DNA of 39,623 nucleotides from contig JAJFLR010000012.1 of NCBI GenBank assembly GCA_021772565.1, positions 1-39,623 on the forward strand, written 5' to 3'. A program made the position numbers and the translations under genes. The DNA comes from Opitutales bacterium (GTDB lineage: Bacteria; Verrucomicrobiota; Verrucomicrobiia; Opitutales; JAJFLR01). Below, in pieces: positions 6,859 through 30,503 of this stretch. The notes below the pieces were generated by a model, which did not search any database, was not told the DNA's origin, and saw nothing but the letters and a program-made list of their open reading frames with translations. The first letter of the stretch is position 1; the number at the start of each line of letters is the position of its first letter.

Positions 6859-6870
6859 CTTTTAATACAA

Positions 6871-8004: not shown

Positions 8005-8044
8005 ATTAAGACGTTGATCAAATTTAATCTTTATTTTTTAGGCT

Positions 8045-9181: not shown

Positions 9182-9231
9182 TCATTTAGAATCCAATCTA
9201 TCATAGTTTTTGATATTATTATTATTATCTT

Positions 9232-10245: not shown

Positions 10246-11387
10246 AAGTAGTTTATAATTCACCAAATCGATCACATCATTATCCTTATGCTTTGGCACT
10301 GCATAAAGGCAATTCTTTGCATGCATTTATTTCTGGAGTGAGTCGTTTGAGTTCCCGTTCACCTTTTCCTGAGATTAATAATAAACTTGTTAGAAAAGAT
10401 TTTTGGCAAAATATTTTTTTGGGATGTGTGAAATTAAAATTTCCTCGATTTATAACTAACAGTATCAATTTAAAAAGTAAAAATGCTATTGATGCAGCTT
10501 CATATCAATTTGCACGAAATGCAGATCTGTTTTTATTTTATAATGGCTGTGGTTTGAACACAATAAATAAATTAAAAGGAAGCAGTGTAATTACCGTTTG
10601 TGAGTGTGTGAATACGCATGTTGGATTTCAGATGGATATATTGGAGAAAGAGCACGCTCTTTGTAATCTTGGATTTCATAGAGATTATGAGAGGGAATAT
10701 GACAAACGAATTGCAGAATATGAAGCTGCAGATTTCCTGCTCTGCCCGTCAGACTTTGTGAAACAAAGTTTCTTATCCAAAGGTATATCTGAGAAAAAAA
10801 TTATTATTAATAATTATGGTATGCCTAATTTTGATGTGATTGAAAATGCCGAAGTTGATGAGGATGTTTTCAGAATCCTTTATGTGGGACAAATAATACC
10901 GAGAAAGGGGATTCGATATTTAATTGAGGCATTTAATAAGTTTGAACATCCCAGAAAAGAGCTATGGCTCGTAGGAGCAATAGGGAAAATCTCAGGCATC
11001 GAAAATATTAAAATACCAGATAATGTTTTATTAAAAGGTGTTTTACGGGGTGATGATTTAATCAACGCTTATCAAAAAGCATCGGTGTTTGCTCAACCCA
11101 GTATCGAAGAAGGGCTATCACTCGTGATAGGAGAAGCATTGTCATTTGGATTACCGATTATTGCTACAGAGAATACTGGGGCGAATGAATTGTTTAATGA
11201 TGGTGAGGCTGGGTATTTTGTCCCAATAAGAAATCCGCATGCCATAACGGAAAAATTATCATTGTTAGCACAGGATTTTGAAATTAGAAAAAAATTGTCA
11301 CTTAATGCTAAAAATATTGCTCAACAGTTAAATGGTTGGGAAGCCAGCGGAAGAGCACTTGTTAATAAATTAGAATCGTTACTTTAG
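10242..11387 (+). CDS. Family 4 glycosyltransferase
   Basis: A 381-residue GT-B glycosyltransferase starting on the ATGA overlap with the preceding gene. The donor domain shows LYVGQIIPRKGIRYLIEAF and an EX7E motif EGLSLVIGE, then GLPIIATENTGANEL. The N-terminal domain is less typical, with no obvious Gly-Gly loop after MKVVYNSPNRSHHYPYALA. It is seven bases upstream of the membrane polymerase-like gene. Confidence 0.84.
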   Translation: MKVVYNSPNRSHHYPYALALHKGNSLHAFISGVSRLSSRSPFPEINNKLVRKDFWQNIFLGCVKLKFPRFITNSINLKSKNAIDAASYQFARNADLFLFYNGCGLNTINKLKGSSVITVCECVNTHVGFQMDILEKEHALCNLGFHRDYEREYDKRIAEYEAADFLLCPSDFVKQSFLSKGISEKKIIINNYGMPNFDVIENAEVDEDVFRILYVGQIIPRKGIRYLIEAFNKFEHPRKELWLVGAIGKISGIENIKIPDNVLLKGVLRGDDLINAYQKASVFAQPSIEEGLSLVIGEALSFGLPIIATENTGANELFNDGEAGYFVPIRNPHAITEKLSLLAQDFEIRKKLSLNAKNIAQQLNGWEASGRALVNKLESLL

Positions 11388-11394
11388 ATAATTT

Positions 11395-12891
11395 ATGAGA
11401 CTGAGATTATTACGTCAGCTGATAATGGCTATGATAGTGATCCTTATATTTGAGGGGGTGATTCGTAAGCTTTTGCCTGGACCGCTGAGTAAATTATTTA
11501 TCCTGGTCAAAGATGGTATCGCACTCATGATTGCAGTTGGAGTATTGCAATCGGGTGTCAAAGGAATTGTTGGTCAGTTAATGATGTTGCATGCGGTATT
11601 TGCTATCGCACTTATACCATTGATTTTAAATACATTTTTGATCGACCCGGTACTAGCTTTTTTTGGCGCAAAACAATATTTACTATTTCATTTTATTTCA
11701 TACGGAATCGTCAAAGGTTTTAGTGATTTTGAGAGAACAGATTTTACCAGGCCTTATAAATTTATTGCTTTAACAATATACATAACTGCTCCAATTGCAC
11801 TAATACAACTTAAATTAGGTGCCGGCCATTGGTTAAACTTATCAGTTTCTGGAGAAGATTTAAGCGGGTTTTCAGCTGGTGGTAATTTGCGAGTCTCAGC
11901 TACATTTCCTTTCATTGCCCAATTTTCCTGGTACCTTATGGCGATTTCTTATGCATATGCTATTTCCTTTAGTTGGAAACCTAAAACAGGCCGCTTTAAA
12001 AAGTTATTTCACCTGCCAACAATGTTGTTACTGTTAATTGTCGCAAATTTCATAACGGGATCAAGAACAGCGGTAATGGGTAATTTAGTAGTTGTTGTAT
12101 TTGCCGGTGGCTTACTTATGGTTCGGGGGAGTAAGCGGGGTCAAAAATGGTTAATAGGTTTAGTCATATTTGGCGCAGTTGCATATCAGGGAGCTCAATA
12201 TCTATTCCCATCTGCATTTGTCGCATTTAAAGCTCGATCAAGTGATACAGCATCATTTGTCGATTCAGATGAGATGAAAACCAGAATTGAGCATGCCTTT
12301 CTGGGCTGGACCGGTGTTTACAAAAGAAAAAATGCCGGCGCTTTTGGCTTTGGGTTAGGTACGATGAGTAATGGGGTACAATCTTTGAGTAAATATGCTG
12401 ATGCATTACGGAAAAAGAAAATATGGGGAGAAACAGATTTGGCAAATACTGTATTGGAAGGAGGCTATTATCTAGTAGTAATTTGGATGCTATTTCGAGT
12501 ATCTATAATATTAATATGTATTAAAGTATATTTAAGTATTAAACACTCGAAGATAGTATTCTGCGCTGCATTTTTAACGGGATATATTATTTTCAATGGA
12601 TTAACAGGTACTTTTGGAATTCAACCTCCAACACTAATATGGTGGCATTTTGCAATAGGGGGGCTTATGGTTCTATCAAATTATGAAAAATTTTTAGTAG
12701 CAAAGAAAAGATCTGATATTAAATCAGCAAAACAAGAAAAATTTGATCAAAAAGAATTAGACCGAAATAAAGTTGAACTTGAAAATGCAAATAATATCAA
12801 AAGAGATGACAAAAATTTATTAGATGAAGATGCCGTAAGAAGAGAAACTGCACTCAATGAAGAATATAATAGAATAGTTAAATTAGAATGA
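11395..12891 (+). CDS. Wzy / O-antigen ligase-like polytopic membrane protein
   Basis: A 498-residue protein with roughly ten hydrophobic segments in its first ~430 residues, e.g. LIMAMIVILIFEGVIRK and MLLLLIVANFITGSRTAV. TGSRTA resembles the G-S-R-x-A segment of the O-antigen ligase/polymerase (Wzy_C) family, and a large non-membrane loop follows. The last ~60 residues are highly charged, rich in Lys, Glu and Asp, and probably cytoplasmic and helical; this tail is unusual. In this cluster it is most likely the polymerase joining repeat units in the periplasm, but ligase activity is equally possible. It overlaps the next gene by ATGA. Confidence 0.75.
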   Translation: MRLRLLRQLIMAMIVILIFEGVIRKLLPGPLSKLFILVKDGIALMIAVGVLQSGVKGIVGQLMMLHAVFAIALIPLILNTFLIDPVLAFFGAKQYLLFHFISYGIVKGFSDFERTDFTRPYKFIALTIYITAPIALIQLKLGAGHWLNLSVSGEDLSGFSAGGNLRVSATFPFIAQFSWYLMAISYAYAISFSWKPKTGRFKKLFHLPTMLLLLIVANFITGSRTAVMGNLVVVVFAGGLLMVRGSKRGQKWLIGLVIFGAVAYQGAQYLFPSAFVAFKARSSDTASFVDSDEMKTRIEHAFLGWTGVYKRKNAGAFGFGLGTMSNGVQSLSKYADALRKKKIWGETDLANTVLEGGYYLVVIWMLFRVSIILICIKVYLSIKHSKIVFCAAFLTGYIIFNGLTGTFGIQPPTLIWWHFAIGGLMVLSNYEKFLVAKKRSDIKSAKQEKFDQKELDRNKVELENANNIKRDDKNLLDEDAVRRETALNEEYNRIVKLE

Positions 12892-14051
12892 TATTAATAT
12901 TTGAAACACATCCAATTCAGTATAGAGCGCCTTTGTACCAAGAAATGAATCGACTTGGCGGTGTCGAGTTTTGTGTGATTTATGCCAGCGACTGTTCCGT
13001 TAGAGGACACGTTGATAAACAGTTTGGTGAAAAATTTAGTTGGGATGTGCCGTTGTTGCAAGGGTATGACTTTAAAGTTTTAAATAATGAAAAGGGTGAT
13101 CCACTGAATGGGTTTTTCAGTCTTCATGGTCGTGGTGTTTATCAATTACTAAAAGATATTAAACCATCAGCAATTCTAATGTGCAGCTTTCTTTATCAAT
13201 TTGATTTTGCAGCTTTGTTAGCAGCTAGACGATTAGGAATTCCCGTATTGATGAGGCATGAAACTCAGGATCACGCTTTCCCCCAAAAGAATCCATTAAA
13301 AGTTATTTTAAGAACTTTATTTTATAGAATTTTATATTCACAGGTAAAAACAGCATTTCCTATTGGGAAATTAAATCTGGAACATTATCGTAAGTATGGA
13401 TTATCAACTGACGATAATAACATCGTTAGTTACTCTGTGCCTGATCACTGCCAAAATTTGTCTTTGGAAGAAAAAGAAAATTTAAGAAACTCACTACGAG
13501 CCAAATTTAATATTCCAGTCGATCACTATTTGATTGGGTTTTCAGGAAAATTGATACCTAAAAAAAATCCCGATTTAATTTTAGAGGCGATTAAATTATT
13601 ACCCGATGCGCTACGACAGCGCACTCATGTATTATTTTTAGGATCGGGTGAATTAGCTGATGAATTAAAAAGTTATGCTAAAGAAAATTCTATTAATGCT
13701 ATTTTTCCGGGATTTGTGAATCAGTCGGAGTTAGTCTCATATTATCTGGCATTTGATACTATGGCATTGCCATCTAGACAAATGGGAGAGACTTGGGGAT
13801 TGGTTGTTAATGAGGGATTAATGGCAGGGTGTAGCGTTATTGTTTCTGATGCAGTTGGGAGTAGTTCAGAATTTGGTAATTGGCAACGTGTTAGCGTGAT
13901 TCATGTTGGAGATGCAGAAGGGTTTGCTGAAGCATTAACGGGGCATGCTCAATTTGATCATGATTTTAACTGGGCAACAGAAAAAATGAAACCCTATACA
14001 ATACCGGAAGTTGCTAAAGTATATGTTGATAAATTAAAACCTTATGGTTGA
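12888..14051 (+). CDS. Family 4 glycosyltransferase
   Basis: A 387-residue GT-B enzyme. It begins ILIFETHPIQYRAPLYQ, a start common to a subgroup of GT4 proteins found beside polymerase genes. The donor domain has GFSGKLIPKKNPDLI and the EX7E-type ETWGLVVNE. The start codon overlaps the membrane protein's stop, indicating coupled expression. Confidence 0.87.
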   Translation: MILIFETHPIQYRAPLYQEMNRLGGVEFCVIYASDCSVRGHVDKQFGEKFSWDVPLLQGYDFKVLNNEKGDPLNGFFSLHGRGVYQLLKDIKPSAILMCSFLYQFDFAALLAARRLGIPVLMRHETQDHAFPQKNPLKVILRTLFYRILYSQVKTAFPIGKLNLEHYRKYGLSTDDNNIVSYSVPDHCQNLSLEEKENLRNSLRAKFNIPVDHYLIGFSGKLIPKKNPDLILEAIKLLPDALRQRTHVLFLGSGELADELKSYAKENSINAIFPGFVNQSELVSYYLAFDTMALPSRQMGETWGLVVNEGLMAGCSVIVSDAVGSSSEFGNWQRVSVIHVGDAEGFAEALTGHAQFDHDFNWATEKMKPYTIPEVAKVYVDKLKPYG

Positions 14052-14105
14052 TACAATTGAATTTTAAATGCCAAAATAATGTTAAAGATTATAGCAATCA
14101 AATGA

Positions 14106-15263
14106 ATGCGGAACATTAAAAAAGTTGTTTTAATAAGTAACTACCGACTTGACTGCCAATTCAGTATGTTGCTCTTTGCTGAATTATTATTTCGTGAAAT
14201 TACAGAGGTAGGTATTAAAAGTGAAATTATTTACCCTGCAGAAATTTTGGGAAAACTGGCATTCGGCAAGCGTTTTTTAATTAAATGGTTAGGGTATATC
14301 GATAAATATCTTTTGTTTCCAATCCTGCTGAAAATTAAATTAAGGAAAATCAATGCTGAGACAAATGGGCAGTTTATAGTTCATGTAGCTGATCATTCAA
14401 ATTCAATTTATTATGACTCAATTAAAAATTATGCTCATTTAATAACGTGTCATGATTTAATGGCAATTAAATCAGCTCTAGGTCAGATACCTCAAAACAA
14501 AACTAAAACATTAGGTAAAAAATTGCAAAATTGGATACTCTCAAATCTCATAAAATATAAATACACAGTTTGTGTTTCTAATAATACTCGTAACGATTTA
14601 TTAAAATATAGCACTAGTGAATCTAATCAAATTCGCGTAATTTTTTCGTCGCTTAATTTTAAGTATAGACGTCTGGATTATGACGTGGCGAAAACAAATT
14701 TATTGAACAGGACAGATTTAAAAACTCCATTTATATTACATATTGGCTCCAATAATTGGTATAAAAATCGAATAGGAGTAGTTGAAATATTTAGTAAGGT
14801 TTTAGATCAGTTGGAAGATAAACAGTTATTTCTGGTATTGTGTGGTGAATCAATTTCAGGGAATATCAATGATCTTATTAAGCAAAAAAAATTAGAAAGT
14901 AATATTATTATATTAGAAAATTCTTCCAATACTGAATTGCAGTCTTTGTATTCGTTAGCTGAAGTATTTCTATTCCCATCAATTTATGAAGGATTTGGTT
15001 GGCCGCCGTTAGAAGCACAGGCGTGCGGTTGTCCTGTGGTTTCTTCGAATGGGGGCTCCCTGAAAGAGATTATCGAGGATAGTGCATTAGTATCCCATCC
15101 TGATGACCTGGATTTATTCGCCAGAAATATAGTTTCACTGATTCAATCAAAAACTTTGCGAGAATCCTGTATTGAAAAAGGATATAATAATTTAAATAGA
15201 TTTTCTACTGAAAAAATGGTTAGAGGTTACGTTGATCTCTATAATAAAATATTAAATAATTAA
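14106..15263 (+). CDS. Family 4 glycosyltransferase (mannosyltransferase-like)
   Basis: A 385-residue GT-B enzyme. The donor domain has LHIGSNNWYKNR and the EX7E motif EGFGWPPLE followed by GCPVVSSNGGSLKEI, a form often seen in mannosyl- or rhamnosyltransferases. CHDLMAIKSALG in the first domain matches the HD-type motif of that subgroup. The donor cannot be proved from this. The gap of 54 bases to the preceding gene is the largest inside the second half of the cluster. Confidence 0.85.
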   Translation: MRNIKKVVLISNYRLDCQFSMLLFAELLFREITEVGIKSEIIYPAEILGKLAFGKRFLIKWLGYIDKYLLFPILLKIKLRKINAETNGQFIVHVADHSNSIYYDSIKNYAHLITCHDLMAIKSALGQIPQNKTKTLGKKLQNWILSNLIKYKYTVCVSNNTRNDLLKYSTSESNQIRVIFSSLNFKYRRLDYDVAKTNLLNRTDLKTPFILHIGSNNWYKNRIGVVEIFSKVLDQLEDKQLFLVLCGESISGNINDLIKQKKLESNIIILENSSNTELQSLYSLAEVFLFPSIYEGFGWPPLEAQACGCPVVSSNGGSLKEIIEDSALVSHPDDLDLFARNIVSLIQSKTLRESCIEKGYNNLNRFSTEKMVRGYVDLYNKILNN

Positions 15264-15277
15264 TTGTCGGTGAAAAA

Positions 15278-16477
15278 ATGAAAATTCTGCGCTCACTTCC
15301 TACAATTGATCCTAAAGCCGGTGGTACTGTAGAAGCTGCAGCACGAATGAGTGAAGCACTTTCTAATGAAGGTGTGGAAATTGAATTCGTTTCGCTCGAT
15401 GATCCCAATGCATCGTATGTTAATAATTTTCCCTGGAAAGTTCATGCTGTTGGGCCGGGTCGTGGTTTTTATGGATTTACCAAGAGTTTGGACGATTGGC
15501 TTTTATCAAACCATACTAACTATGATGCCGTAATTATTGATGGGATATGGCAATACTCGAGTTACGGTGTTTGGAAAATTTTGCATAATAAAAATACCCC
15601 CTATTTTGTTTACCCACATGGAATGTTAGACCCTTGGTTTAAAAAAAATTATCCATTAAAGCATTTAAAGAAATGGCTATACTGGCCATGGGCGGAATAT
15701 AGAGTGCTTCGCGATGCCCGCGCAGTTTTATTTACTGCAGAAGATGAACGATTATTGGCGAAACAATCTTTTTGGTTATATAAATGCAATGAACATGTAA
15801 CGAGTTATGGTACTTCAAAACCATCCGGTGATCCCGAAAAACAAAAAGCTGCTTTTTTTAGCAAATATCCAGATTTAGAGGGTAAACGAATTCTTCTCTA
15901 CATTGGTAGAATTCATGAAAAAAAAGGAGCCGATTTACTATTGAAAGCTTATCTGAATTTATTGTCGGGATTAAGTTCCGATGAAATAAATAACACACAT
16001 TTATTCATGGCCGGGCCTCCCTCAACAGAAAGTTTTTCCAGTCAATTAAAAGAAATTGAAATTACCGAATTTGCCAAAATTAAATCCAAAGCTTCTTCAA
16101 TGCCAATAACCTGGGCAGGCATGATAGAAGGTGATATTAAGTGGGGAGCTTTCTATGCTGCTGATGCATTTGTGCTGCCTTCCCATCAGGAAAATTTTGG
16201 CATGGCTGTGGCAGAATCACTCGCTACCAGAACCCCGGTTTTAATTTCTAACAAAATTAATATTTGGAGAGAAATTGAAGCAAGTAATGCCGGTTTTGTA
16301 TCTAATGATGATTTGGCGGGAACCAAACAATTGTTGAAAAGTTGGTTTGAACTCGATAATGATAAAATAAATAAGATGTCACAAAATGCGGTTAATTGTT
16401 TTAATCAAAATTTTGATATAATAAATATTGCAAAAAATTTTAAACAATATTTGCAAAATTCTTTATCTGAAAATTAA
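15278..16477 (+). CDS. Family 4 glycosyltransferase
   Basis: A 399-residue GT-B enzyme. It begins KILRSLPTIDPKAGGTVEAA, with the acceptor Gly-Gly loop, then YPHGMLDPW, YIGRIHEKKGADLLLKA and the EX7E motif ENFGMAVAE. YPHGMLDPW-type segments are common in GT4 enzymes that work next to WcaF-type acetyltransferases, and such a gene follows ten bases later. GGTG at 15268-15271 may serve as a weak ribosome binding site. Confidence 0.87.
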   Translation: MKILRSLPTIDPKAGGTVEAAARMSEALSNEGVEIEFVSLDDPNASYVNNFPWKVHAVGPGRGFYGFTKSLDDWLLSNHTNYDAVIIDGIWQYSSYGVWKILHNKNTPYFVYPHGMLDPWFKKNYPLKHLKKWLYWPWAEYRVLRDARAVLFTAEDERLLAKQSFWLYKCNEHVTSYGTSKPSGDPEKQKAAFFSKYPDLEGKRILLYIGRIHEKKGADLLLKAYLNLLSGLSSDEINNTHLFMAGPPSTESFSSQLKEIEITEFAKIKSKASSMPITWAGMIEGDIKWGAFYAADAFVLPSHQENFGMAVAESLATRTPVLISNKINIWREIEASNAGFVSNDDLAGTKQLLKSWFELDNDKINKMSQNAVNCFNQNFDIINIAKNFKQYLQNSLSEN

Positions 16478-16487
16478 ATATACCGGT

Positions 16488-17039
16488 ATGACAAAAGTTC
16501 GACTTGATAAATTTGATGCTAAAAAAAATTTAGATCGCGGAAGATCTAAGTTAGTCGAAGTATTTTGGTATATTTGCAAATGTTTGTTTTTTCTCTCTCC
16601 ACTCCCATGGCCAATCTCCTTTAAAATATTTTTGCTAAGATTTTTTGGTGCAAAAGTGGGACACGGAGTTGTTATTAAACCTCGTGTCAATATTCACTTT
16701 CCATGGAAACTGGAATTAAAAGATCATGTTTGGATAGGTGAAGAGGTTTTTATATTGAATTTTGAACCAGTTGAGATTGGAAGTAACAGTTGCTTGTCGC
16801 AAAGAGTTTTTCTATGTGCCGGCAATCATGATTTTCGATCAGAAGATTTTGCTTATCGCAACGCCCCAATTAAAATAGAAGAGGGTGTTTGGGTGGGTGC
16901 TCAAGTATTTGTTGGACCCGGGGTTGTTATAGGAGAAGATGCCGTTATTTGTGCCGGATCAGTTGTTGTGAGCGATCAGCAATCGAGTATGATTTGTCGA
17001 GGAAACCCTGCAAAAGCTGTCAGCCCCCGTTGGAAATAA
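16488..17039 (+). CDS. WcaF-type hexapeptide acetyltransferase
   Basis: A 183-residue left-handed beta-helix acetyltransferase that probably O-acetylates a sugar of the polysaccharide using acetyl-CoA. The hexapeptide repeats run through VGHGVVIKPRVNI, HVWIGEEVFIL, VWVGAQVFVGPGVVIGEDAVI; the likely catalytic His is in CAGNHDFRS, a segment shared with WcaF and related enzymes. RGNPAKAVSPRW is the usual C-terminus. I chose the ATG at 16488 because the open frame upstream of it runs back into the preceding gene and is not family-like. Last gene of the cluster. Confidence 0.88.
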   Translation: MTKVRLDKFDAKKNLDRGRSKLVEVFWYICKCLFFLSPLPWPISFKIFLLRFFGAKVGHGVVIKPRVNIHFPWKLELKDHVWIGEEVFILNFEPVEIGSNSCLSQRVFLCAGNHDFRSEDFAYRNAPIKIEEGVWVGAQVFVGPGVVIGEDAVICAGSVVVSDQQSSMICRGNPAKAVSPRWK

Positions 17040-20175: not shown

Positions 20176-20925
20176 ATGAGTAAGAAATACGAATGGCATT
20201 ATTTAACTATGGATAATGATTATCAAATATCATTAAAATTAGTAAATCCTCCTACCAAAATTAAGGGATATTTTGTTTTTATTCATGGATATTTTAGTGC
20301 TAATAGTCTGGGGCCAAACCGATTGTTTGTTGATATTCAAGAACGGTTACTTCAAAGAGGTATAGTATCTATAAGATATGATTGGAAAGGTATGGGCGAC
20401 AGCACTGGCAATATTTGTGAAAACACTCTTAAGTCTACTGTTGAGGAAATTATTAAAACATTGAAATTCTCGAATATAGAAAATAGCAATAATGATGTTT
20501 ACTTTGTTGCCCATAGTTTGGGTTGTGCTGTTCTTCTAGAATATCTGAACTCTTATTTTTCTGTTAATCCAAAATGTGTTTTTTTAATTTCTCCAGGACC
20601 TTTTAGTGAAGAAGGTGTAAAAAAACTATGTCCATCATTTTCTTATGATTCAGAATATTTGTTCCGAAATGGTCTTAAAATAGGACTACAGTTTTTAAAA
20701 GACGTTATTAATAGCGAATTTTATGAAAAAGTTGAAAAACTAAAGTTTCCTCTAAGAGCCTTTGTTTCTGAAGACGATAATTTATTAGATATTAATAGTT
20801 TACATGAAATCAATAATACAAACTTAGAAATAACTACATTGTTAAAGGGGGGGCATAATTTTATTGACTATAATTCAAAATTGATTGTTGTTGATAAAAT
20901 TATTCAAACCATTGACGTTAGCTAA
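20176..20925 (+). CDS. Alpha/beta hydrolase (serine hydrolase)
   Basis: A 249-residue soluble hydrolase. The oxyanion loop is FIHGY (35-39), then YDWKGMGDSTG (69-79), a form of the RGxGxS motif common in this fold. The nucleophile elbow is AHSLG with Ser114. The acid is probably Asp200 or Asp201 (SEDDN) and the base His227 (GGHNF). The catalytic triad therefore looks complete. The substrate is unknown; the fold covers esterases, lipases and peptidases. The next gene starts one base after its stop, so the two form an operon. Both have strongly A/T-ending codons by eye. Confidence 0.8.
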   Translation: MSKKYEWHYLTMDNDYQISLKLVNPPTKIKGYFVFIHGYFSANSLGPNRLFVDIQERLLQRGIVSIRYDWKGMGDSTGNICENTLKSTVEEIIKTLKFSNIENSNNDVYFVAHSLGCAVLLEYLNSYFSVNPKCVFLISPGPFSEEGVKKLCPSFSYDSEYLFRNGLKIGLQFLKDVINSEFYEKVEKLKFPLRAFVSEDDNLLDINSLHEINNTNLEITTLLKGGHNFIDYNSKLIVVDKIIQTIDVS

Positions 20926-20926
20926 A

Positions 20927-22705
20927 ATGGATGATAATATAAATGCAATGCACTCAATTGATCCAGTTTTATTTGATTCTTCTGGGATTCCATGTGAATT
21001 TTTAGATAGAAATAGATTCCCAAATGAATACAATCTTATATATAATGATAAATCAAATTTGATTGATTCACTAGTTTTCAACTCAGATAATTATCTTTCT
21101 AATTTTAAAGACAAAGTACAAAATATTTCTAAAAATATCAAAGGATATAATGATTCTGATATTATAGTAAACAACTTAGAAGAAAGTTTAATCTCAATAA
21201 GGGTATCTATTGAAGGACAGTTAGAGCGTTCGATTAGTACTTGTTCAATAAAGAAAGCAATTTGTTATTTAGAATTATTACAAATTATTATTGATGAATT
21301 AGTATTACTTCTAAGGTATGCAAAAGATGAAAGAAAAATAACCGAATCTAAATACAATGAATTAATAGGAGAAAACTTTCTTGGTATTGAAGTAATTAAA
21401 AATTATTTCAGCAGCATTGAAGACAATAGTAAATTTAAGGAATTAAAGGAAAGTAATAAAGAGGTATATGATGAAGACGCATATTTTAAAATAAAAGCTT
21501 TAAAAGCAAAGACGTTTACTGAAGATATTGCTTTTCCCCAACTATTGGCACGTTGTAGAGAGGGAAACAATCGAGTAATAATATCTGCAGTAAATGATAT
21601 TTTTAGCGCTATAAGGGATTTAGATTCAATTAAGTATAATTGGTCATCAAGTGAAATTGGAATTGATCAATATGTAAGAAAAGCTTTAGCTTTTAGACAT
21701 CTAGCAATGGCATCCCTAATTATTGGCGAACCCAATAAAGCGGCATTTTATTTAGCAATTACTAATTTAAATATTAGGTGTATTCGAAATGATGAATATT
21801 TTAAAAAATTTCTTAACGAGCAAAAACGAGGGTATGCCGAACTGCACAAATTAATTAATAACCCTCAAATAGGTAGAGAGATTTTGGAAGGATCTGGGTT
21901 CAATATTGATAATATTGGGCAGTTTATAACTAGAAAAATTAATAGATTTAATTTTAATGATTCAACAATTAATATTTGGTTGGTGAATCATATTGAATGT
22001 GAAAAAGATATAAACTCTAAGTTTAGTGATCCTGATAATCCTACAATTAAAGGTAACGCTCAAGAAGCTGAAATATTAGAAATATTAAGCAATGAGGTTT
22101 CTCAAAACATTGATGTTAGTGATGATAGTATTTTGCATTTTTTGTGTTCCGATAAGCTGAAAAGTTATATTAAAAGTAATTTCATAAATAAATTTGAAGA
22201 ATCTGTGGATGATAAAATAAAAATTAAATTCGAATCTTCAGCTGAGATTAATTCTGTTGAGCAGGGAGGATTTAATGATTTATCTGAAGATACAGCTAGT
22301 GAAAATTACCCGACTGAATATAAATATCTCAGCAATTATAGAAAAAATAACGTTGATGGCTTTGAAATTAAATATCCAGATGGAAATAATAATATTGGAG
22401 AATCAGTAATAGATTTTGAGAAACGAGTAGCAAAAAAGATTATTGAATTTTTATTAAAACATCTAGTACACAAAAAATCTGAAAAAGAATTTAAAAATAG
22501 CATAAATAGTAAAGCATTCATTATTTATGGTGGTAATTCAACTGTAACTGCTATTTTGAATTTGATTCGATGTTTAAATGGTATATCAAATATAGATCAA
22601 AAATATAAATATTATCATATTGATAAAGGCGCAGTTTTTCATATTAAGATCAATTTAGACAGATCGGTTGATGTAGAAATTAAATCTACCAAGATTATAT
22701 TATAA
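20927..22705 (+). CDS. Large protein with a degenerate C-terminal histidine-phosphatase-like domain
   Basis: 592 residues. Residues 1 to about 345 are mostly helical by composition and not recognised. From about 349 the sequence follows the histidine phosphatase (phosphoglycerate mutase-like) pattern: NIWLVNHIECEKDIN stands where LVRHGETxxN is expected, then TIKGNAQEAEILEIL for the GxxQAxxL helix, GESVIDFEKRV for GES...FxxRV, and AFIIYGGNSTVTAIL for the VVSHGG strand. The nucleophile His355 is kept, but the Arg before it is Asn, the Gly after it is Ile, and the second catalytic His is Tyr534. This suggests an inactive or re-purposed domain. The ATG at 20927, one base after the hydrolase stop, is preferred to an upstream in-frame ATG inside that gene. 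Convergent with the deacetylase, 5 bases apart. Confidence 0.6.
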   Translation: MDDNINAMHSIDPVLFDSSGIPCEFLDRNRFPNEYNLIYNDKSNLIDSLVFNSDNYLSNFKDKVQNISKNIKGYNDSDIIVNNLEESLISIRVSIEGQLERSISTCSIKKAICYLELLQIIIDELVLLLRYAKDERKITESKYNELIGENFLGIEVIKNYFSSIEDNSKFKELKESNKEVYDEDAYFKIKALKAKTFTEDIAFPQLLARCREGNNRVIISAVNDIFSAIRDLDSIKYNWSSSEIGIDQYVRKALAFRHLAMASLIIGEPNKAAFYLAITNLNIRCIRNDEYFKKFLNEQKRGYAELHKLINNPQIGREILEGSGFNIDNIGQFITRKINRFNFNDSTINIWLVNHIECEKDINSKFSDPDNPTIKGNAQEAEILEILSNEVSQNIDVSDDSILHFLCSDKLKSYIKSNFINKFEESVDDKIKIKFESSAEINSVEQGGFNDLSEDTASENYPTEYKYLSNYRKNNVDGFEIKYPDGNNNIGESVIDFEKRVAKKIIEFLLKHLVHKKSEKEFKNSINSKAFIIYGGNSTVTAILNLIRCLNGISNIDQKYKYYHIDKGAVFHIKINLDRSVDVEIKSTKIIL

Positions 22706-22710
22706 TTGAA

Positions 22711-23565
22711 TTATTTGCATGAAAAACTATTAATTTTGCTAAGTACATCATTCGCGAACTTTTCTAAATAACTTTTAGTGAAGTCTGACAGTGATAATGA
22801 GTCATTTAATATTAAGGGCATAAGATCTAACGCAAATGTCATAGCATCGATGTTATCTATTTCATGAGATGAGTGATATGTAGCATTAGCATATCTTCTT
22901 CCTTCTGTAGCAAGGTCATATCTCTTGCCTCCACTGATCTGAGAGTCAAAAATTTCAACTAATGCTGAAGCAATATTTTTATATTTGTCTGTTGGCAATG
23001 CAATTTTGTCTTCATCTAAAACCCAATCTAAATCTCTCCAGACTTCACAACCATATGCTTTTTTAGGTCGTATTTCTTTAGGTAATTTACGTATTGCTTC
23101 TAAAGATTTCATAAGTACAGCTACATGCGTAAAATGTTTGTCCGCCGGATTATGAAGATATACCACTTCAGGTTTAGCAATTTCGCAAATTTTCATTATA
23201 TCATTTACGACATCATTATTATTTGCGTCTTTAACTGCTGAACTTGGATGTGCAAGTTGAATTTGTATTCCATACTCACCAACAAATGCTGCTTTACGTT
23301 GTTCTTGCTGACGAATCTCTTGCATTTGTTCATCAGTATAGTCAGCATAAATTCCTGCACGTGGACTTCCAGATCCATTTGTAACAACAACTCCAGAAAA
23401 CCACTTTTCTTTTTGCCCAAAACATTCAGCAATTCCGTTATATGCAAATATCTCAATATCATCTGGGTGTGTTGCAATACATAGATGTGTGGTTCTAGTA
23501 AGTGCTTTGTCTTGTTCTATTCCATCTGGTACAAAAATATCGGCTTTTGAATGACTAAATAACAT
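22711..23565 (-). CDS. PIG-L / LmbE family deacetylase
   Basis: A 284-residue zinc-dependent N-deacetylase-like protein. The metal and catalytic motif HPDD is at residues 33-36 (ATHPDDIEI) and the second metal site is HNPADKHFTH (H138, D142, H144, H147). Family members remove acetyl groups from GlcNAc-containing substrates, as in mycothiol, bacillithiol and GPI precursor synthesis. The neighbours on the genome scale include a ROK-type kinase, a GT4 glycosyltransferase and a HAD hydrolase, which together suggest a small glycoside pathway; that link is an inference. The cyclase gene separates it from the kinase. Confidence 0.85.
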   Translation of the reverse strand: MLFSHSKADIFVPDGIEQDKALTRTTHLCIATHPDDIEIFAYNGIAECFGQKEKWFSGVVVTNGSGSPRAGIYADYTDEQMQEIRQQEQRKAAFVGEYGIQIQLAHPSSAVKDANNNDVVNDIMKICEIAKPEVVYLHNPADKHFTHVAVLMKSLEAIRKLPKEIRPKKAYGCEVWRDLDWVLDEDKIALPTDKYKNIASALVEIFDSQISGGKRYDLATEGRRYANATYHSSHEIDNIDAMTFALDLMPLILNDSLSLSDFTKSYLEKFANDVLSKINSFSCK

Positions 23566-23693
23566 GTTTGTAAAATTTTATATTTAAATTTAATAAATCA
23601 ATTAAATGTTTATGAAAATCATATGTTTATATTTTTGTAGTATGTCGAATAAAATTTAAAATACTCTAATATTTATAGTTGATGGTTCGATTT

Positions 23694-26279
23694 TTATTCA
23701 AGTTTATTATTTTTTAATAGAATTAGTATTACTCTATTAAAAAATTCAAATATATCATTATTGGGTTCAATAATATACCCTTCAAATTTATCAGGATGTT
23801 TTAATATAACTTGTTCAAATGTAGGTTCATTTAGTTTGTTTGTTAATATTACACAAGGATGTTCGATTCTCTTTAGGTTATTTTGAAGAGAATTTATTTC
23901 ATCTAGTGTTAATTTTCTAGGGGGACCTTTTTGTATTTTTATTACTGGGTGGATTTCAGGATCTGAATTATTAACCCATTCTATAACATTACTCAACTTC
24001 GCTGCAGATACCAGCTTTCCAGAGATATTTGCAAGCGAGCCATATATCGTATAGTCAAATCCAATATCTAATTCTTTGAAATTTATAGGTTGAGTACTTC
24101 CAATAATACTATCACCTATAGTTAAGCCAAATCCTAAACCGAAATTTCTATCAAATCCAAATTTGAAGGTGTAACTTTTTATTAAGGACATAAATTCTTG
24201 ATAAATCTCAAGAACACATAAAACTGAATTTTCAATAGCGAGCTGAAATTTAATTGGTTTATCAATATCTATTATATTATCATAAATATTAAAAAAAGCT
24301 TGGATTCCATCTCCCATAGTTTTATCGATAACTGCGCCATATTTATATAGACACTCTATTGTTTTATTATGATAGTCATTAATGAAATCACTAAAAAGTG
24401 TTAATTTATTATGATGATCACAATTAATAGAAAAGGCTGTTGATCCTCTAATATCTATATTAAAAACTAAAATATTACTATATTTACTTGCATTTAATAA
24501 ATCGCCCTTACTTTTAATAATATTAAATACTTTGTCTGAATTGTAGCTAAAATGATATTTTAATATCATTTTAATGGGCTCATCGTTGATAGGCTTATTT
24601 TTTTCTTCCTTACTATGAAGTAAAGTTTTTCTGAAATTGATTACATCATGTACACTTCTACAAATTAGTGATACAGACCAAATCTCATCACTTAATAGAG
24701 ATGTGAAGTATCTTTTGCAAGTTGCCCATAGTATTGTTTTAATGCATTCATTACCTTCATTATCAAATGAGAATATAGGTATTCCAATACTAGTTGCAAC
24801 AGCAGGAATTGTATTTATGTAGTCTGCTAAATCCTTATGTGGTAAAGGTAGATTTGGTGATGAATAGTTAGTCCATTTTAAAAAGAGTTTTGACTTACAA
24901 TCTAATTCTCCAATTTTATGATCACATGTTAATTCTTTGCTATCTGAATTTTTGAATCTCAAATTTGCTAGAACCAGAATTTTATTTGGATTTTCATTGA
25001 TCCAGTTCGAATTACCTTTTTTCCTCGGCTTAGATAATGTTGGTATTTTATTGAACTGTGGATCACGATACCAGCTATCTTCTTTAAAATCCCATATAGC
25101 AGCATAAAACCCTAACTCATTTACACGCTTAATAATAGTATTATAAATAAATTTTTCATCATCAATAATACTATTATCATGCATCAAGTCATGCTGTGTA
25201 TTTATACAAATATTCAAGTCTTCATAAAATAGTATTTGCCTTACCACCGTTGCTGCGAATCGTGATATGTGCATTAACATCTGAATGTGTCTCATGTTAT
25301 AAGCGTTTGACTCGTTTGATTCTAGATTAATAACTCCAACAACTTTACCTTGGACAATTAGCGGTAAAGTAACCTCTGATATAGAGCCAATTTTTAAGTC
25401 AAGAAATTTTGGATATAAGCTATTATTATCCGAAATCTTAATATTATATTCATTCTTATTCTCTATTAATAATATTTGTCCGGTTCGTGCAACATAGTCA
25501 ACAATGCCGTTAGTGTTTTGGGGGATTTCAATACTTTTATTATTACAATAAAGTAGCTGTATAATATTATTTCTATCAACTTTATTTAGTGTACAAACTA
25601 TATTTTTACCGTTATTATTAGGATTGACAATTTTAACTGTTTCTTCAACAATTTCCTCATATAATTTTTCCCAACTATCCTTTTCACAAATTATGGTAGA
25701 GCCAAATTTTGATTGTAAAGATAAAATTAAAGACTGTATATTTATCAAATCCTCTTCATCAAGTATTGATCCTTTGCATAGCTCAAATAATAGATCAGAT
25801 ATTAAAATAATTTTATTTTTAATTACACATTCAAGATGCACCTTCTCTATTGGAAGTTTTTCACTATAATTTATAAAAATTACTGCTTGTGTGTCATATC
25901 CTTTAAAACCAGTATCTTTATTATAGTTAATAATTATTCGTATAATGTGTGTTACAGATTCTCTATTAAAAAATGGGGTTCCGTATAGAATCTTTTCAGA
26001 AAAATCATCTGGAATATTTTTATTAAATTTTTCTCCGTAGTAATTAGTAATATAGTGTTCATTTTTATTGATATCATAAAGAATTCTATCGACCTGGTGT
26101 TTATGAGTCAGTGGGCCTTTCATGAATTCAGGGTATTTAAATTCTCCTAGGTGAGAATATAGCCAATATATATCTGATGATGAATTTCGAATATAACAAG
26201 TCAGTAGATCAGCATTAAGTTTTTCAAATAGATCAATTAAAGCATTGTCCGCAAACTCTTTTATTTTATTTGATTTCAT
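23694..26279 (-). CDS. GAF-domain sensor with C-terminal class III nucleotide cyclase
   Basis: 861 residues with no membrane segment. A GAF-like region is at about 60-165, a clearer GAF domain at about 195-350 (GIVDYVARTGQ, VTLPLIVQGKVVGVINLES), and a third, divergent sensor-like region at about 370-550. The class III cyclase domain starts near 600: the first metal-binding Asp is D609 in NIDIRGST, the second D657 in DKTMGDG with Lys653 in the substrate-selecting position, and DYTIYGSLANISGKL aligns with the DYTxxGxxVNxAxRL motif. The transition-state Asn751 is kept but the usual Arg four residues later is Lys755. It likely makes a cyclic nucleotide in response to a ligand. Composition is very AT-rich. 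No cyclic-nucleotide-binding effector is recognised next to it. Confidence 0.78.
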   Translation of the reverse strand: MKSNKIKEFADNALIDLFEKLNADLLTCYIRNSSSDIYWLYSHLGEFKYPEFMKGPLTHKHQVDRILYDINKNEHYITNYYGEKFNKNIPDDFSEKILYGTPFFNRESVTHIIRIIINYNKDTGFKGYDTQAVIFINYSEKLPIEKVHLECVIKNKIILISDLLFELCKGSILDEEDLINIQSLILSLQSKFGSTIICEKDSWEKLYEEIVEETVKIVNPNNNGKNIVCTLNKVDRNNIIQLLYCNNKSIEIPQNTNGIVDYVARTGQILLIENKNEYNIKISDNNSLYPKFLDLKIGSISEVTLPLIVQGKVVGVINLESNESNAYNMRHIQMLMHISRFAATVVRQILFYEDLNICINTQHDLMHDNSIIDDEKFIYNTIIKRVNELGFYAAIWDFKEDSWYRDPQFNKIPTLSKPRKKGNSNWINENPNKILVLANLRFKNSDSKELTCDHKIGELDCKSKLFLKWTNYSSPNLPLPHKDLADYINTIPAVATSIGIPIFSFDNEGNECIKTILWATCKRYFTSLLSDEIWSVSLICRSVHDVINFRKTLLHSKEEKNKPINDEPIKMILKYHFSYNSDKVFNIIKSKGDLLNASKYSNILVFNIDIRGSTAFSINCDHHNKLTLFSDFINDYHNKTIECLYKYGAVIDKTMGDGIQAFFNIYDNIIDIDKPIKFQLAIENSVLCVLEIYQEFMSLIKSYTFKFGFDRNFGLGFGLTIGDSIIGSTQPINFKELDIGFDYTIYGSLANISGKLVSAAKLSNVIEWVNNSDPEIHPVIKIQKGPPRKLTLDEINSLQNNLKRIEHPCVILTNKLNEPTFEQVILKHPDKFEGYIIEPNNDIFEFFNRVILILLKNNKLE

Positions 26280-26307
26280 TTTTGATCTTATGTATTATAT
26301 AACTTAA

Positions 26308-27732
26308 TCACAATACTGATTTGTTTATTAGTGAAATTGTTTTTGGCAAGCTTGCAGCGGCTACCGCTTGTCCATGTCTTTTAAAAGTTTCATCGGGTGT
26401 ATTCAGTTCTATTTTTTTATACAAGTCTGTAAATTCGTCACGAAGAATTTCTTTGGCTTTATCAATTATAATTTCTCCACCTTCACCAGATGTGACTCTT
26501 CCTAAAATCAATAGATTATTTATATCATAAAACTCAGCGTAATGAGCAATTGAGTAGCCGAAATAAACTCCTATGGTTTGATAAATTTTTTTAGCACGCT
26601 CATCATTTTTTTTCATCAGGTTTTGGACTTCACTTAGTTTTTCTGCTAAGCTCATTTCTTCCGGTAAATTAATTCCGGCATTCGGCAACAGGCGACCAAC
26701 GCCCTGTTGTGAAAAATATTGGACGCCGCAACCTTTATCTCCAGACCATTCATCAATGGGTGCGTCATCACGATAATCAATTGGTACAAAAGCCAATTCA
26801 TTGAGCCAGTTTGTAATATTGCCATTTGGATTTACGTATCCTGCCGCTTGGCTGGTTCCCATACTGAGTCCAAGGACCCCATTTTTATTAAGTGACATCG
26901 ATCCGGCAAGGGCGGTGACCTCACCATCATTTGCCACTTCAAAGGGAATATTGTTCCAATCATTTCTTAATTTGGAAAATATTTTTCTTACATGGTTTTC
27001 AAAATTATCTGGTGCGACTCCTCTAAAAAGTGATGCGACTCGAACTTCATTTTCAATGTAAACTCCGGCAGCACTGCCACCAATCGCATCTACTCTGGGT
27101 AATTTATCAGCAGCTCTTTTTAGTGTATCACAAATACCCTCATAATGATATTGAGGATCTATCTCAAAATATGGGTTCCAGACCACTTCTTCAGTATGGA
27201 TTGGTTTTCCGTCAATGACTGCAGCACATTTGCGGTCACTTCCCCCAAGATCAAAACCAATTCGACAGCCATCTAAATTCCTTCCGAGAGATTTTGCCAA
27301 CTCATTTGGCTCCGGGAGTTCTTCAAAATTACGTGACTCAACAACAAATTTTTTGGCATAAACTTTTTGCCCCATAAACTCATAATCAAAAGCTCTTTCT
27401 CCTTCAGGGTGGTAAATTTTAGCTATAGTTTTAGCTACCTCAGGATCACCGCAAATGATGACTTTATATCCACCTCGCTGCCACAGTAATAACTTTATTA
27501 ATCTTTCAACGTACTTGATGTTCAATGAAATATTATCGTTCTGATGGACGAGAATTTTTGTTTTAATGACAGAAACAGTTCCGTCGCTCCTTTCAATTGC
27601 AATCCCAATATCTGTGGAATCAGAAGATTGGTTAACTCTTTCACGATACAGCTTATTCCAAATAACAGCAGGTGAAAATTCTGGATCAAGAATAGGCCTA
27701 TGTTTTAAAAATTTGGAAGTGTCTAAAATCAT
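26308..27732 (-). CDS. ROK/ASKHA-type sugar kinase-like protein
   Basis: 474 residues with the ASKHA ATPase fold: phosphate-binding GFDLGGSDRKCAAVIDG, GGSAAGVYIEN, ANDGEVTALAGS and GLSMGTSQAAGYV, the last being the adenosine-side loop. It is longer than typical ROK kinases (~300) because of ~190 N-terminal residues and an insertion. The ROK zinc-binding cysteine cluster is not seen. It would phosphorylate a sugar or amino sugar in the cytoplasm. I chose the ATG at 27732 because the 19 residues of the longer frame form an isolated hydrophobic stretch unlike the rest. The gene precedes the cyclase on the same strand. Confidence 0.7.
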   Translation of the reverse strand: MILDTSKFLKHRPILDPEFSPAVIWNKLYRERVNQSSDSTDIGIAIERSDGTVSVIKTKILVHQNDNISLNIKYVERLIKLLLWQRGGYKVIICGDPEVAKTIAKIYHPEGERAFDYEFMGQKVYAKKFVVESRNFEELPEPNELAKSLGRNLDGCRIGFDLGGSDRKCAAVIDGKPIHTEEVVWNPYFEIDPQYHYEGICDTLKRAADKLPRVDAIGGSAAGVYIENEVRVASLFRGVAPDNFENHVRKIFSKLRNDWNNIPFEVANDGEVTALAGSMSLNKNGVLGLSMGTSQAAGYVNPNGNITNWLNELAFVPIDYRDDAPIDEWSGDKGCGVQYFSQQGVGRLLPNAGINLPEEMSLAEKLSEVQNLMKKNDERAKKIYQTIGVYFGYSIAHYAEFYDINNLLILGRVTSGEGGEIIIDKAKEILRDEFTDLYKKIELNTPDETFKRHGQAVAAASLPKTISLINKSVL

Positions 27733-27817
27733 AATATATTTTTTAAATACGCTAACTAATAAAAAATATGCGTCAATAAAAAGGATCACGAAATTTTAGT
27801 AAAATAACGCTATAAAA

Positions 27818-28011
27818 GGTAGGGCTTGAGCTTGGAGGCTGTTGAAAAATAGCAAAAAGATATTGTACACTTTTGTCATTGCAAGCCATCAGCATGATGG
27901 CGCGGCAATCTATCAGCATTTCACGGTCTGGATTGCCGCGGCGCTTCGCTTCTCGCAATGACAATTGCGTAGTCTTACTGTTTTTCAACAGCCTCCAAGC
28001 GAAGACCCTAC
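27818..28011. repeat. Palindromic element with GGTAGGG ends and long terminal hairpin
   Basis: The left arm GGTAGGGCTTGAGCTTGG continues into AGGCTGTTGAAAAA (27818-27848); the right arm TTTTTCAACAGCCTCCAAG runs to CCCTAC (27981-28011). The arms are almost perfectly complementary, with a few mismatches. Inside the loop lies a second inverted repeat of the GTCATTGC family. The element fills the space between the divergent kinase and glycosyltransferase genes; nothing else is seen in 27790-28098. Confidence 0.72.
27873..27964. repeat. Nested GTCATTGC-type palindromic repeat
   Basis: TTGTCATTGC at 27873-27882 faces GCAATGACAA at 27955-27964, with further inner complementarity (GCGGCAATC against GATTGCCGC). 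It is the same family as the repeat at 17229-17319, but inserted in a different host element. Confidence 0.65.
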
Positions 28012-28098
28012 AAATTAAATTCAATCAGCAACTTTTACTACGAAACCTAAAAATTATATTGTCGTTTAAATAACAAAAATTACTCTATATCATAAATC

Positions 28099-29565
28099 AT
28101 GACATTACGCGTAGCAATTGTTCATTATCACTTAAATCTCGGAGGTGTCACTAAGGTAATTGAAAGCGCTGTTGCATCACTCACTGATTCTAATATTGAT
28201 GTTGTTGTTTTGTCAGGTGAACCTTACACAGGTGATAAGTTAGATAACGTTGTCGTTGTTGAGGGGCTTGGGTATTCAATTAATGATTCATCCAACTTAA
28301 CTTCAAAAGAATTAAAAAAACGTCTTATTGAAGGAGTATGTCGTGGTCTTGGTGGATTGCCCGATGTATGGCATGTCCATAATCACTCGTTAGGTAAAAA
28401 TGCTAAACTTCTTGGAGCAATAATTGAACTTATTGATGAAGGGCATAGATTTTTATTTCAGATTCATGATTTTGCTGAAGATGGTAGATCAGCGAATTAT
28501 AAAATTTTATTGAATGAGAAATATCAAAATCAAAAAAAATATACTGAATTACTTTATCCTGTGGGACAGCAGTGTCACTATGCTTTATTAAATAGTAGAG
28601 ATTATAAATTTTTGCTTGATTCTGGTATGGATAGTAATCGACTACATTTGCTTCATAACCCAGTTGTTATCCCGGCTGATTCTTTTCATCAGTCCAATAA
28701 AAAAATCGAACTGAGGAAATTTAAGCGTTACTTTTTTTATCCGGTGCGTGGAATACGTCGGAAAAATTTGGGAGAAATTTTACTGTTATCAATTTTTGCA
28801 AAGGAAGGGGATTGTTTTGTAGTCTCTTTAGAACCTGAAAATCCTGTTTGGAAACCTGTTTATGACCATTGGGTTAAATTGGCTAATGAACTAAGTTTAC
28901 CTGTTATATTTAACGCTGTAAATGATTATGATTACAGTTTTTCGGATTGGATTAATAATGCTTATGCTATTGTAACAACAAGTATAGCAGAAGGTTTTGG
29001 CATGGCTTTTTTGGAACCTTGGCTATTTTCAAAACCATTAGTCGGAAGGAATATAACTGATATAACAGTCGATTTTGAAGAAGCTTCTATTGATCTATCG
29101 TCATTATATTCAGAGATACCTATCCCACTAAACTTCTTTGAAAAAAATTTATTGCTTAACACTTTTACAAAAAAAATAGGTGCACACTTTGATGCTTATA
29201 ATATGAATATCACTGATGCTGAATTACAACATGCCACGCATTATTTTTTCAATGAAGGCAAAGTTGATTTTGGCAGACTGGATGAAGAGTTACAGGAAAT
29301 TGTAATTCGAAAATTATGTTCTGATACTTCACTAAGTAATAATTTAGCTATCAACTTGTATGCCAAGATTCCATCAATGGAAATTATCAGGAAAAATTCT
29401 ACAAATCTAAAAAATAATTTTGGCAATAAAAACTACGGAAAAAAACTAAAACAAATTTATATACAAATTGCTGCTGAGGAGATAGGTGAAATCTCATTTC
29501 TGAATGCTAACACCGTGCTTAATAAATTTTTAAATCCAGCTCATATAAATTTATTGCGGATTTAG
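28099..29565 (+). CDS. Family 4 glycosyltransferase
   Basis: 488 residues with a GT-B fold. The N-terminus VAIVHYHLNLGGVTKVIES carries the Gly-Gly loop, and the donor domain has YPVRGIRRKN and the EX7E motif EGFGMAFLE. A C-terminal extension of about 120 residues follows the catalytic domains; it is Lys/Asn/Leu-rich and not recognised. It is divergent from the ROK-type kinase and 41 bases upstream of the HAD gene, apart from the main polysaccharide cluster. Confidence 0.83.
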   Translation: MTLRVAIVHYHLNLGGVTKVIESAVASLTDSNIDVVVLSGEPYTGDKLDNVVVVEGLGYSINDSSNLTSKELKKRLIEGVCRGLGGLPDVWHVHNHSLGKNAKLLGAIIELIDEGHRFLFQIHDFAEDGRSANYKILLNEKYQNQKKYTELLYPVGQQCHYALLNSRDYKFLLDSGMDSNRLHLLHNPVVIPADSFHQSNKKIELRKFKRYFFYPVRGIRRKNLGEILLLSIFAKEGDCFVVSLEPENPVWKPVYDHWVKLANELSLPVIFNAVNDYDYSFSDWINNAYAIVTTSIAEGFGMAFLEPWLFSKPLVGRNITDITVDFEEASIDLSSLYSEIPIPLNFFEKNLLLNTFTKKIGAHFDAYNMNITDAELQHATHYFFNEGKVDFGRLDEELQEIVIRKLCSDTSLSNNLAINLYAKIPSMEIIRKNSTNLKNNFGNKNYGKKLKQIYIQIAAEEIGEISFLNANTVLNKFLNPAHINLLRI

Positions 29566-29606
29566 ATTTCTAGTTGTGGAAATACAAAGTATGAAATTAT
29601 TTTATA

Positions 29607-30503
29607 ATGAATAAATATAAATCCAATAATTGCATAGATTTAATTCGTAAATTTTCGTCACCTCTGTTACCAATACCAACAGAAATCTCTGCCAGTTTAA
29701 AAAAAATTCCTAATATCAAGGGAGTGGTATTTGATGTCTATGGAACTTTATTTATCTCAGCAGCTGGTGATATAAGTCTTGCTGAAAATAAAAACTATGA
29801 ATCGATATTGCGAAAAGTAATGGCTGATTTTGGTTTTAAGATGATAAATCAAGAAAAGCATTATGCTCATCTGTTTAATGAATTTATCCAAACAGCAGGT
29901 GAGGCTAAGCGCAGAACATTAAATATAAAATTTTCAGAAATTGAAATTCGTGAAGTATGGACGAATTTTATTGAAACGTTATTGAGGAGTGGTGATCTTG
30001 CCGGTGATATTGATAATAATACTATAGAAAACATGGCTGTTGCCTATGAGTGTCAGGTGAATCCGGTTTGGCCGATGCCAAATGTTGAGCAAGTTTTAAA
30101 TAATCTGCTTAGCCAAAATTTTTTGTTAGGTATTATCTCAAACGCTCAATTCTACACACCTTTGCTTTTTGAATCACTCTTGAACAAAAATTTAAATGAA
30201 TGGGGTATAGGTAAAAATCGTTCAGTGTGGTCTTACAAAATTTCTGAAGCAAAGCCATCAGTCAAATTATATGATGATTTAAAAAAACGATTATCTTTGT
30301 TGGGCACCAGTGCATCGGAAATTTTATATGTTGGTAATGATATGCGAAATGATATTTTGCCTGCTTCGATAGTTGGTTTTAAAACAGCATTATTTGCCGG
30401 CGACAAACGTTCATTAAGATTGCGCAAAGACGATGCAGATTGTTGCACCGTTGTTCCTGATTTAATCATTACAAATTTAAATCAGCTTCTAGAATGTGTT
30501 TGA
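29607..30503 (+). CDS. HAD-superfamily hydrolase
   Basis: 298 residues. The nucleophile motif is VFDVYGTLF with Asp43; motif II is ISNAQ, motif III KPSVKL, motif IV YVGNDMRNDILPA. A cap domain lies between motifs I and II. The second Asp of the DxD motif is replaced by Tyr45, as in haloacid-dehalogenase-type members (DAYGT), so a standard phosphatase role is uncertain. It follows the GT4 gene, a common pairing for a transferase and a phosphatase. The convergent rsmE gene ends one base away. Confidence 0.82.
   Translation: MNKYKSNNCIDLIRKFSSPLLPIPTEISASLKKIPNIKGVVFDVYGTLFISAAGDISLAENKNYESILRKVMADFGFKMINQEKHYAHLFNEFIQTAGEAKRRTLNIKFSEIEIREVWTNFIETLLRSGDLAGDIDNNTIENMAVAYECQVNPVWPMPNVEQVLNNLLSQNFLLGIISNAQFYTPLLFESLLNKNLNEWGIGKNRSVWSYKISEAKPSVKLYDDLKKRLSLLGTSASEILYVGNDMRNDILPASIVGFKTALFAGDKRSLRLRKDDADCCTVVPDLIITNLNQLLECV

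Follow-up and report, generated by a model that had tools for sequence, protein, structure and literature searches.

The C-terminal domain (residues 341-592) of a 592-residue protein encoded in a 39,623-nt stretch of Opitutales DNA (the window, which means here the whole stretch that was analysed) is, judged from its sequence, a divergent and degenerate histidine phosphatase (HP) of branch 1, the group of PhoE/phosphoglycerate-mutase-like proteins. We consider it probable, on balance, that this domain is non-catalytic and acts in binding or scaffolding, most likely within a two-protein unit formed with the alpha/beta hydrolase encoded directly upstream. What is new is the architecture; the domain itself belongs, in degenerate form, to a known superfamily. 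The genes and regions concerned are as follows.

20176-20925, plus strand: gene of a 249-aa alpha/beta hydrolase (Pfam Hydrolase_4, E 5.9e-8; Abhydrolase_6, E 4.3e-7)
20927-22705, plus strand: gene of the 592-aa protein, with an ATG start and no family-level database match
20993-21937, plus strand: predicted N-terminal helical region, residues about 23-337 (single-sequence AlphaFold2)
21947-22702, plus strand: histidine-phosphatase-like domain, residues 341-592 (profile, hhalign, Foldseek)
22711-23565, minus strand: PIG-L deacetylase gene, convergent, ending five bases past the stop of the 592-aa gene

The open reading frame of 592 residues given in the initial annotation is real and lies exactly at 20927-22705 on the plus strand. 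Its GC content by codon position (0.36/0.27/0.17) shows the pattern expected for a coding frame, and the overall GC of the 592 codons is 26.5%. The source genome measures 3.57 Mb and is 95% complete; PanC, encoded near the 592-aa gene, is closest to proteins of Opitutales MAGs (57%, 49%) and of an Opitutia MAG (54%), which places the organism most probably in the Verrucomicrobiota, within the Opitutales or close to them. Four consecutive genes at 20176-26279 (the hydrolase, the 592-aa gene, the PIG-L deacetylase and a GAF protein) have a GC3 of 0.17-0.20, below that of nearly all other genes in the window, and this AT-rich stretch may be acquired DNA. Promoter and terminator scans gave results near the level of shuffled sequences. 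The last of the four genes (23694-26279) encodes 861 residues, with a Pfam GAF domain and a C-terminus resembling class III nucleotidyl cyclases, as seen from a weak PADLOC match to PycC (E 0.002) and the motifs NIDIRGSTAF ... DKTMGDGIQAFF. PIG-L deacetylase, ROK-family, glycosyltransferase-like and HAD hydrolase genes are clustered at 22711-30503 and could form a small sugar or thiol pathway. At 4836-17039, an exopolysaccharide-type cluster was recognized by eye, with several glycosyltransferases, an acyltransferase, a polymerase-like membrane protein and a WcaF-type acetyltransferase.

Searches of Pfam, NCBIfam, PADLOC and PDB sequences returned no match to the 592-aa protein at family cut-offs, and the PHROGs search gave nothing useful. 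The HP model PF00300 had no match to it at E <= 10, so its curated cut-off of 21.7 bits was not reached. A weak match to the Cas10 palm (E 0.1) fell far under its own cut-off, and this identity was rejected. About 1,260 genomes, as well as collections of phages, plasmids and PDB entries, yielded no relative of the 592-aa protein. The genomes comprised about 860 of its own phylum, in overlapping sets (87 relatives, 384 of the class, 388 of the phylum), together with 395 genomes of a Bacteroidota sample and seven named genomes. The tblastn search against phages and plasmids and the exact-peptide scans of genome contigs and viral contigs were likewise empty. The few genome matches at E 0.001-0.1 were short; of these, the two that were inspected lay in unrelated loci, one of cell division/PBP and the other encoding a SusD-like protein. 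PF00300 was also absent throughout the own genome at E <= 10, where no other HP domain was found; for this genome the profile A7, which is circular for the 592-aa protein, was used only to look for another relative. In the sample of the order, PF00300 is present in 22 of the 35 genomes. An intact HP domain (PF00300, E 2e-41) fused to a cytidylyltransferase-like domain (PF01467, E 3e-16) was seen at the viral locus L162:834-1787, upstream of a terminase-like gene, and such PF00300-PF01467 phage fusion proteins occur in about 20 similar viral loci (L138-L169).

The homology of residues 341-592 to HPs was revealed by profiles built from PF00300 proteins of the order and of two other phyla and from five proteins of viral contigs, with the query left out. 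The 81-sequence profile scores the 592-aa protein at 13.6 bits (single-comparison E of 1.8e-6), while the best of 5000 shuffles reached 5.7 bits and other proteins of the window at most 2.0. Among 2,695 ORFs of the fetched loci, the 592-aa protein beats every non-HP ORF (the best clear decoy scored 10.7), and the ORFs that score above it either carry an RH[GAS] motif or belong to loci fetched as HP matches. With smaller profiles, scores of 9.1, 10.1 and 8.6 bits exceeded those of all 5000 shuffles, and two others, of 5.0 and 1.1 bits, did not. The score rose as the profile grew from 7 to 81 sequences, and the best-scoring stretch is residues 429-511. The HMM-HMM comparison with the HP family (hhalign, residues 331-592) yielded a score of 35.0 and a probability of 67%, with an alignment colinear from the RHG position to past GES; of the corresponding nulls, 300 shuffles reached at most 24.3, and 44 pieces taken from other proteins of the window at most 21.5. 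True distant homology is expected to give such a signal, colinear and increasing as the profile deepens. Similarity to the branch-1 HP superfamily above chance was thus found by both the 81-sequence profile and hhalign, the HMM-HMM comparison that the initial annotation had named as a check, and the phosphoglycerate-mutase-like pattern that it had read in the C-terminal part is more than chance.

The active site was analysed by comparing residue columns with those of 81 HP proteins. The motifs considered, all on the plus strand, are listed below.

21986-21994, plus strand: NHI at the RHG position (Asn354, His355, Ile356; columns of the 81 HP proteins)
22034-22054, plus strand: DNPTIKG, residues 370-376, matching the D.PLTxxG scaffold motif, with the Asp (82%) and Gly (100%) columns kept
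22145-22174, plus strand: CSDKLKSYIK, residues 407-416, matching S.L.RA..T (columns of the 81 HP proteins)
22253-22255, plus strand: Ser443 at the position of the general-acid Glu (LRE; Glu 80% column)
22397-22405, plus strand: GES kept as Gly491, Glu492 and Ser493, within the stretch 429-511
22523-22537, plus strand: IYGGN, residues 533-537, where the second catalytic His would stand, containing no His

The RHG columns are Arg in 100%, His in 100% and Gly in 95% of the 81 proteins; in the 592-aa protein they read NHI, as had been noticed from the sequence at the start, and the His at the nucleophile position, His355, is retained. The second catalytic Arg (100%) is Lys412, next to a kept Ser408 (Ser 100%). 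For the second His (98%), no alignment register offers a counterpart. The earlier view that it is replaced therefore holds, but its replacement by Tyr depends on the register: it is Tyr534 if HGG is laid on YGG, and Gly535 or Gly536 in the MAFFT registers. An altered catalytic site was thus correctly proposed, with losses wider than those first listed, as Lys412 and Ser443 have to be added. Of the features of a competent HP, the intact RHG, the second Arg, the second His and the general-acid Glu are all missing, and His355 is the one residue left of the four in the Arg-His-Arg-His set, which makes ordinary phosphatase chemistry unlikely. Asp370, Gly376, Ser408, Gly447, Pro484, Gly491, Glu492 and Arg500 are kept relative to the 81 proteins. 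Since the catalytic set is replaced while TxxG, Gly447, GES and Arg500 are preserved, the pattern is that of a folded pseudoenzyme and not of random decay. Altered active sites sometimes keep activity. In the 592-aa protein, phosphatase activity is unlikely given the loss of catalytic residues, the substitutions being those of a single copy in one genome with no orthologue found.

Structure prediction was informative to a different extent for the two halves. The single-sequence AlphaFold2 model of the whole protein has a mean pLDDT of 39 and is too poor to use. When the alignment included seven viral HP proteins, residues 341-592 reached a mean pLDDT of 70 and a pTM of 0.71. A Foldseek search with this HP-biased model gave 42 matches at E < 0.001, all of HP type, with TM of about 0.3-0.6; the best, with E from 9e-7 and TM mostly 0.4-0.6, were CobC, phosphoglycerate mutases, RosC, tau55 and phytases, and the matches to CobC, the mutases and the tau55 HP domain span E 9e-7 to 9e-4. 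Because the alignment carried HP proteins, the model is compatible with an HP fold and is no independent proof of it. The non-HP fold that would have spoken against the initial annotation did not appear, but this outcome was obtained with HP proteins in the alignment. As for the long helical region said to precede the HP-like domain, helices only are predicted there by single-sequence AlphaFold2, but at a pLDDT of about 50-60 at best, and a Foldseek search of the helical half found no significant match (best E 0.12, to designed repeats and TPR proteins).

The closest comparison is with the branch-1 HPs PhoE, CobC and cofactor-dependent phosphoglycerate mutase (PF00300; PDB 1h2e, 3hjg, 1e59), with which the 592-aa protein shares the order of motifs and, in the HP-biased model, the predicted fold. 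It keeps TxxG, GES and the nucleophile-position His of these enzymes; in contrast to them, the Arg of RHG, the second Arg, the general-acid Glu and the second His are replaced, a long helical N-terminal half is present, and the score lies below every curated cut-off. The HP domain of tau55 (TFIIIC; PDB 2yn0, 8ffz), found among the Foldseek matches, is an example of the fold placed within a larger assembly; however, tau55 is a eukaryotic transcription factor, and the link seen between it and the 592-aa protein is one of predicted fold. In PGAM5, for which the active quartet Arg-His-Arg-His was described (PMC5501728), an HP domain with an altered RHG is also preceded by an N-terminal part, regulatory in that protein, yet PGAM5 retains all four residues of the quartet and is active as a protein phosphatase (PMC5501728). 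A precedent for the loss of catalysis with retained binding comes from flea salivary proteins of the HP superfamily, which no longer have catalytic residues or activity and function as binders (PMC10728186). These proteins, however, are of the acid phosphatase type and are secreted by an animal, and the nucleophile His, kept in the 592-aa protein, is lost in them (PMC10728186). In the literature searched, few HP-superfamily pseudoenzymes are described, none of them bacterial.

The hydrolase gene upstream is intact. It encodes a nucleophile elbow (AHSLG) and candidate Asp (EDDN) and His (GGHNF) residues; the enzyme is probably active. One base separates its TAA from the ATG of the 592-aa gene; this spacing makes translational coupling of the two genes very likely, and the proteins would be co-translated. 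Gene order in this one genome points to a partnership of the hydrolase and the 592-aa protein as the most likely arrangement. No gene resembling that of the 592-aa protein neighbours the distant relatives of the hydrolase, found on plasmids and in one member of the order, and in 80 named genomes the surroundings of PanC contain neither the 592-aa protein nor the 249-aa hydrolase. It is proposed that the two proteins would be made together as a two-protein unit, in which the helical half and the pseudo-phosphatase half would hold or regulate the hydrolase, most simply as an adaptor or regulator. This regulation might be gated by a ligand in the old active-site cleft, and such a putative ligand need not be a phosphate, since both arginines are gone. 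A regulatory or scaffolding role is the most likely one for the 592-aa protein: as nearly all residues needed for catalysis are lost, its mode of action is probably binding and not phosphate cleavage. The preferred explanation has to accommodate the absence of a PF00300 match at E <= 10, the dependence of the AlphaFold2 model on the HP alignment, and the retention of His355. It also has to accommodate the failure to find an orthologue, as conserved substitutions would be the strongest sign that a pseudoenzyme is under selection. Its most specific form, in which a dead HP fused to a new helical domain would be a switch controlling the co-translated hydrolase, and the pair an undescribed two-protein regulatory unit, is tentative and rather doubtful.

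Other explanations share part of this evidence. The initial annotation suggested a sensor of a phospho-ligand, in which the dead HP domain would bind a phospho-metabolite or phosphoprotein and signal via the helical half. The predicted HP fold agrees with it, His355 and Lys412 could still contact an anion, and, by analogy, HP-fold pseudoenzymes may bind ligands (PMC10728186). However, the ligands of the flea proteins are amines and leukotrienes and not phosphates (PMC10728186), and the loss of both phosphate-binding arginines (Asn354 and Lys412 stand in their place), together with that of the Glu and the second His, weakens the idea, which we regard as unlikely and for which no support was obtained. 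Retention of His355 despite its changed neighbours would also be expected of an active enzyme with a changed reaction, where His355 takes a phosphoryl or other group and Lys412 and Tyr534 have new roles; yet the residues that act with the nucleophile, which vary little or not at all among the 81 relatives, were all lost together, no feature of the sequence points to a replacement mechanism, and we find this reading quite unlikely.

The gene might instead be decaying, or be recently acquired and fast-evolving with no settled function, which would fit the AT-rich stretch 20176-26279 with its low GC3 (0.17-0.20) and the lack of relatives among the genomes searched. This seems very unlikely in view of a frame open over 592 codons at 26.5% GC, the codon-position bias, the retained scaffold motifs and the equally intact gene of the GC-poor partner hydrolase. 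It is hardly credible that residues 341-592 are an unrelated alpha/beta domain resembling HPs by chance. Curated families without a match and two smaller profiles not above shuffles would agree with such a coincidence, but the deeper profile and hhalign exceed all nulls, colinear motifs run from NHI through to GES, and seven remote sequences gave a fold predicted with moderate confidence.

With the preferred reading of a degenerate HP domain acting by binding, the 592-aa protein shows how far an HP-like domain can diverge and so escape detection by curated family models. A genome in which no canonical HP was found, and in which the gene of such a protein adjoins that of an intact hydrolase, would provide a simple two-protein system for testing the role of a dead phosphatase.
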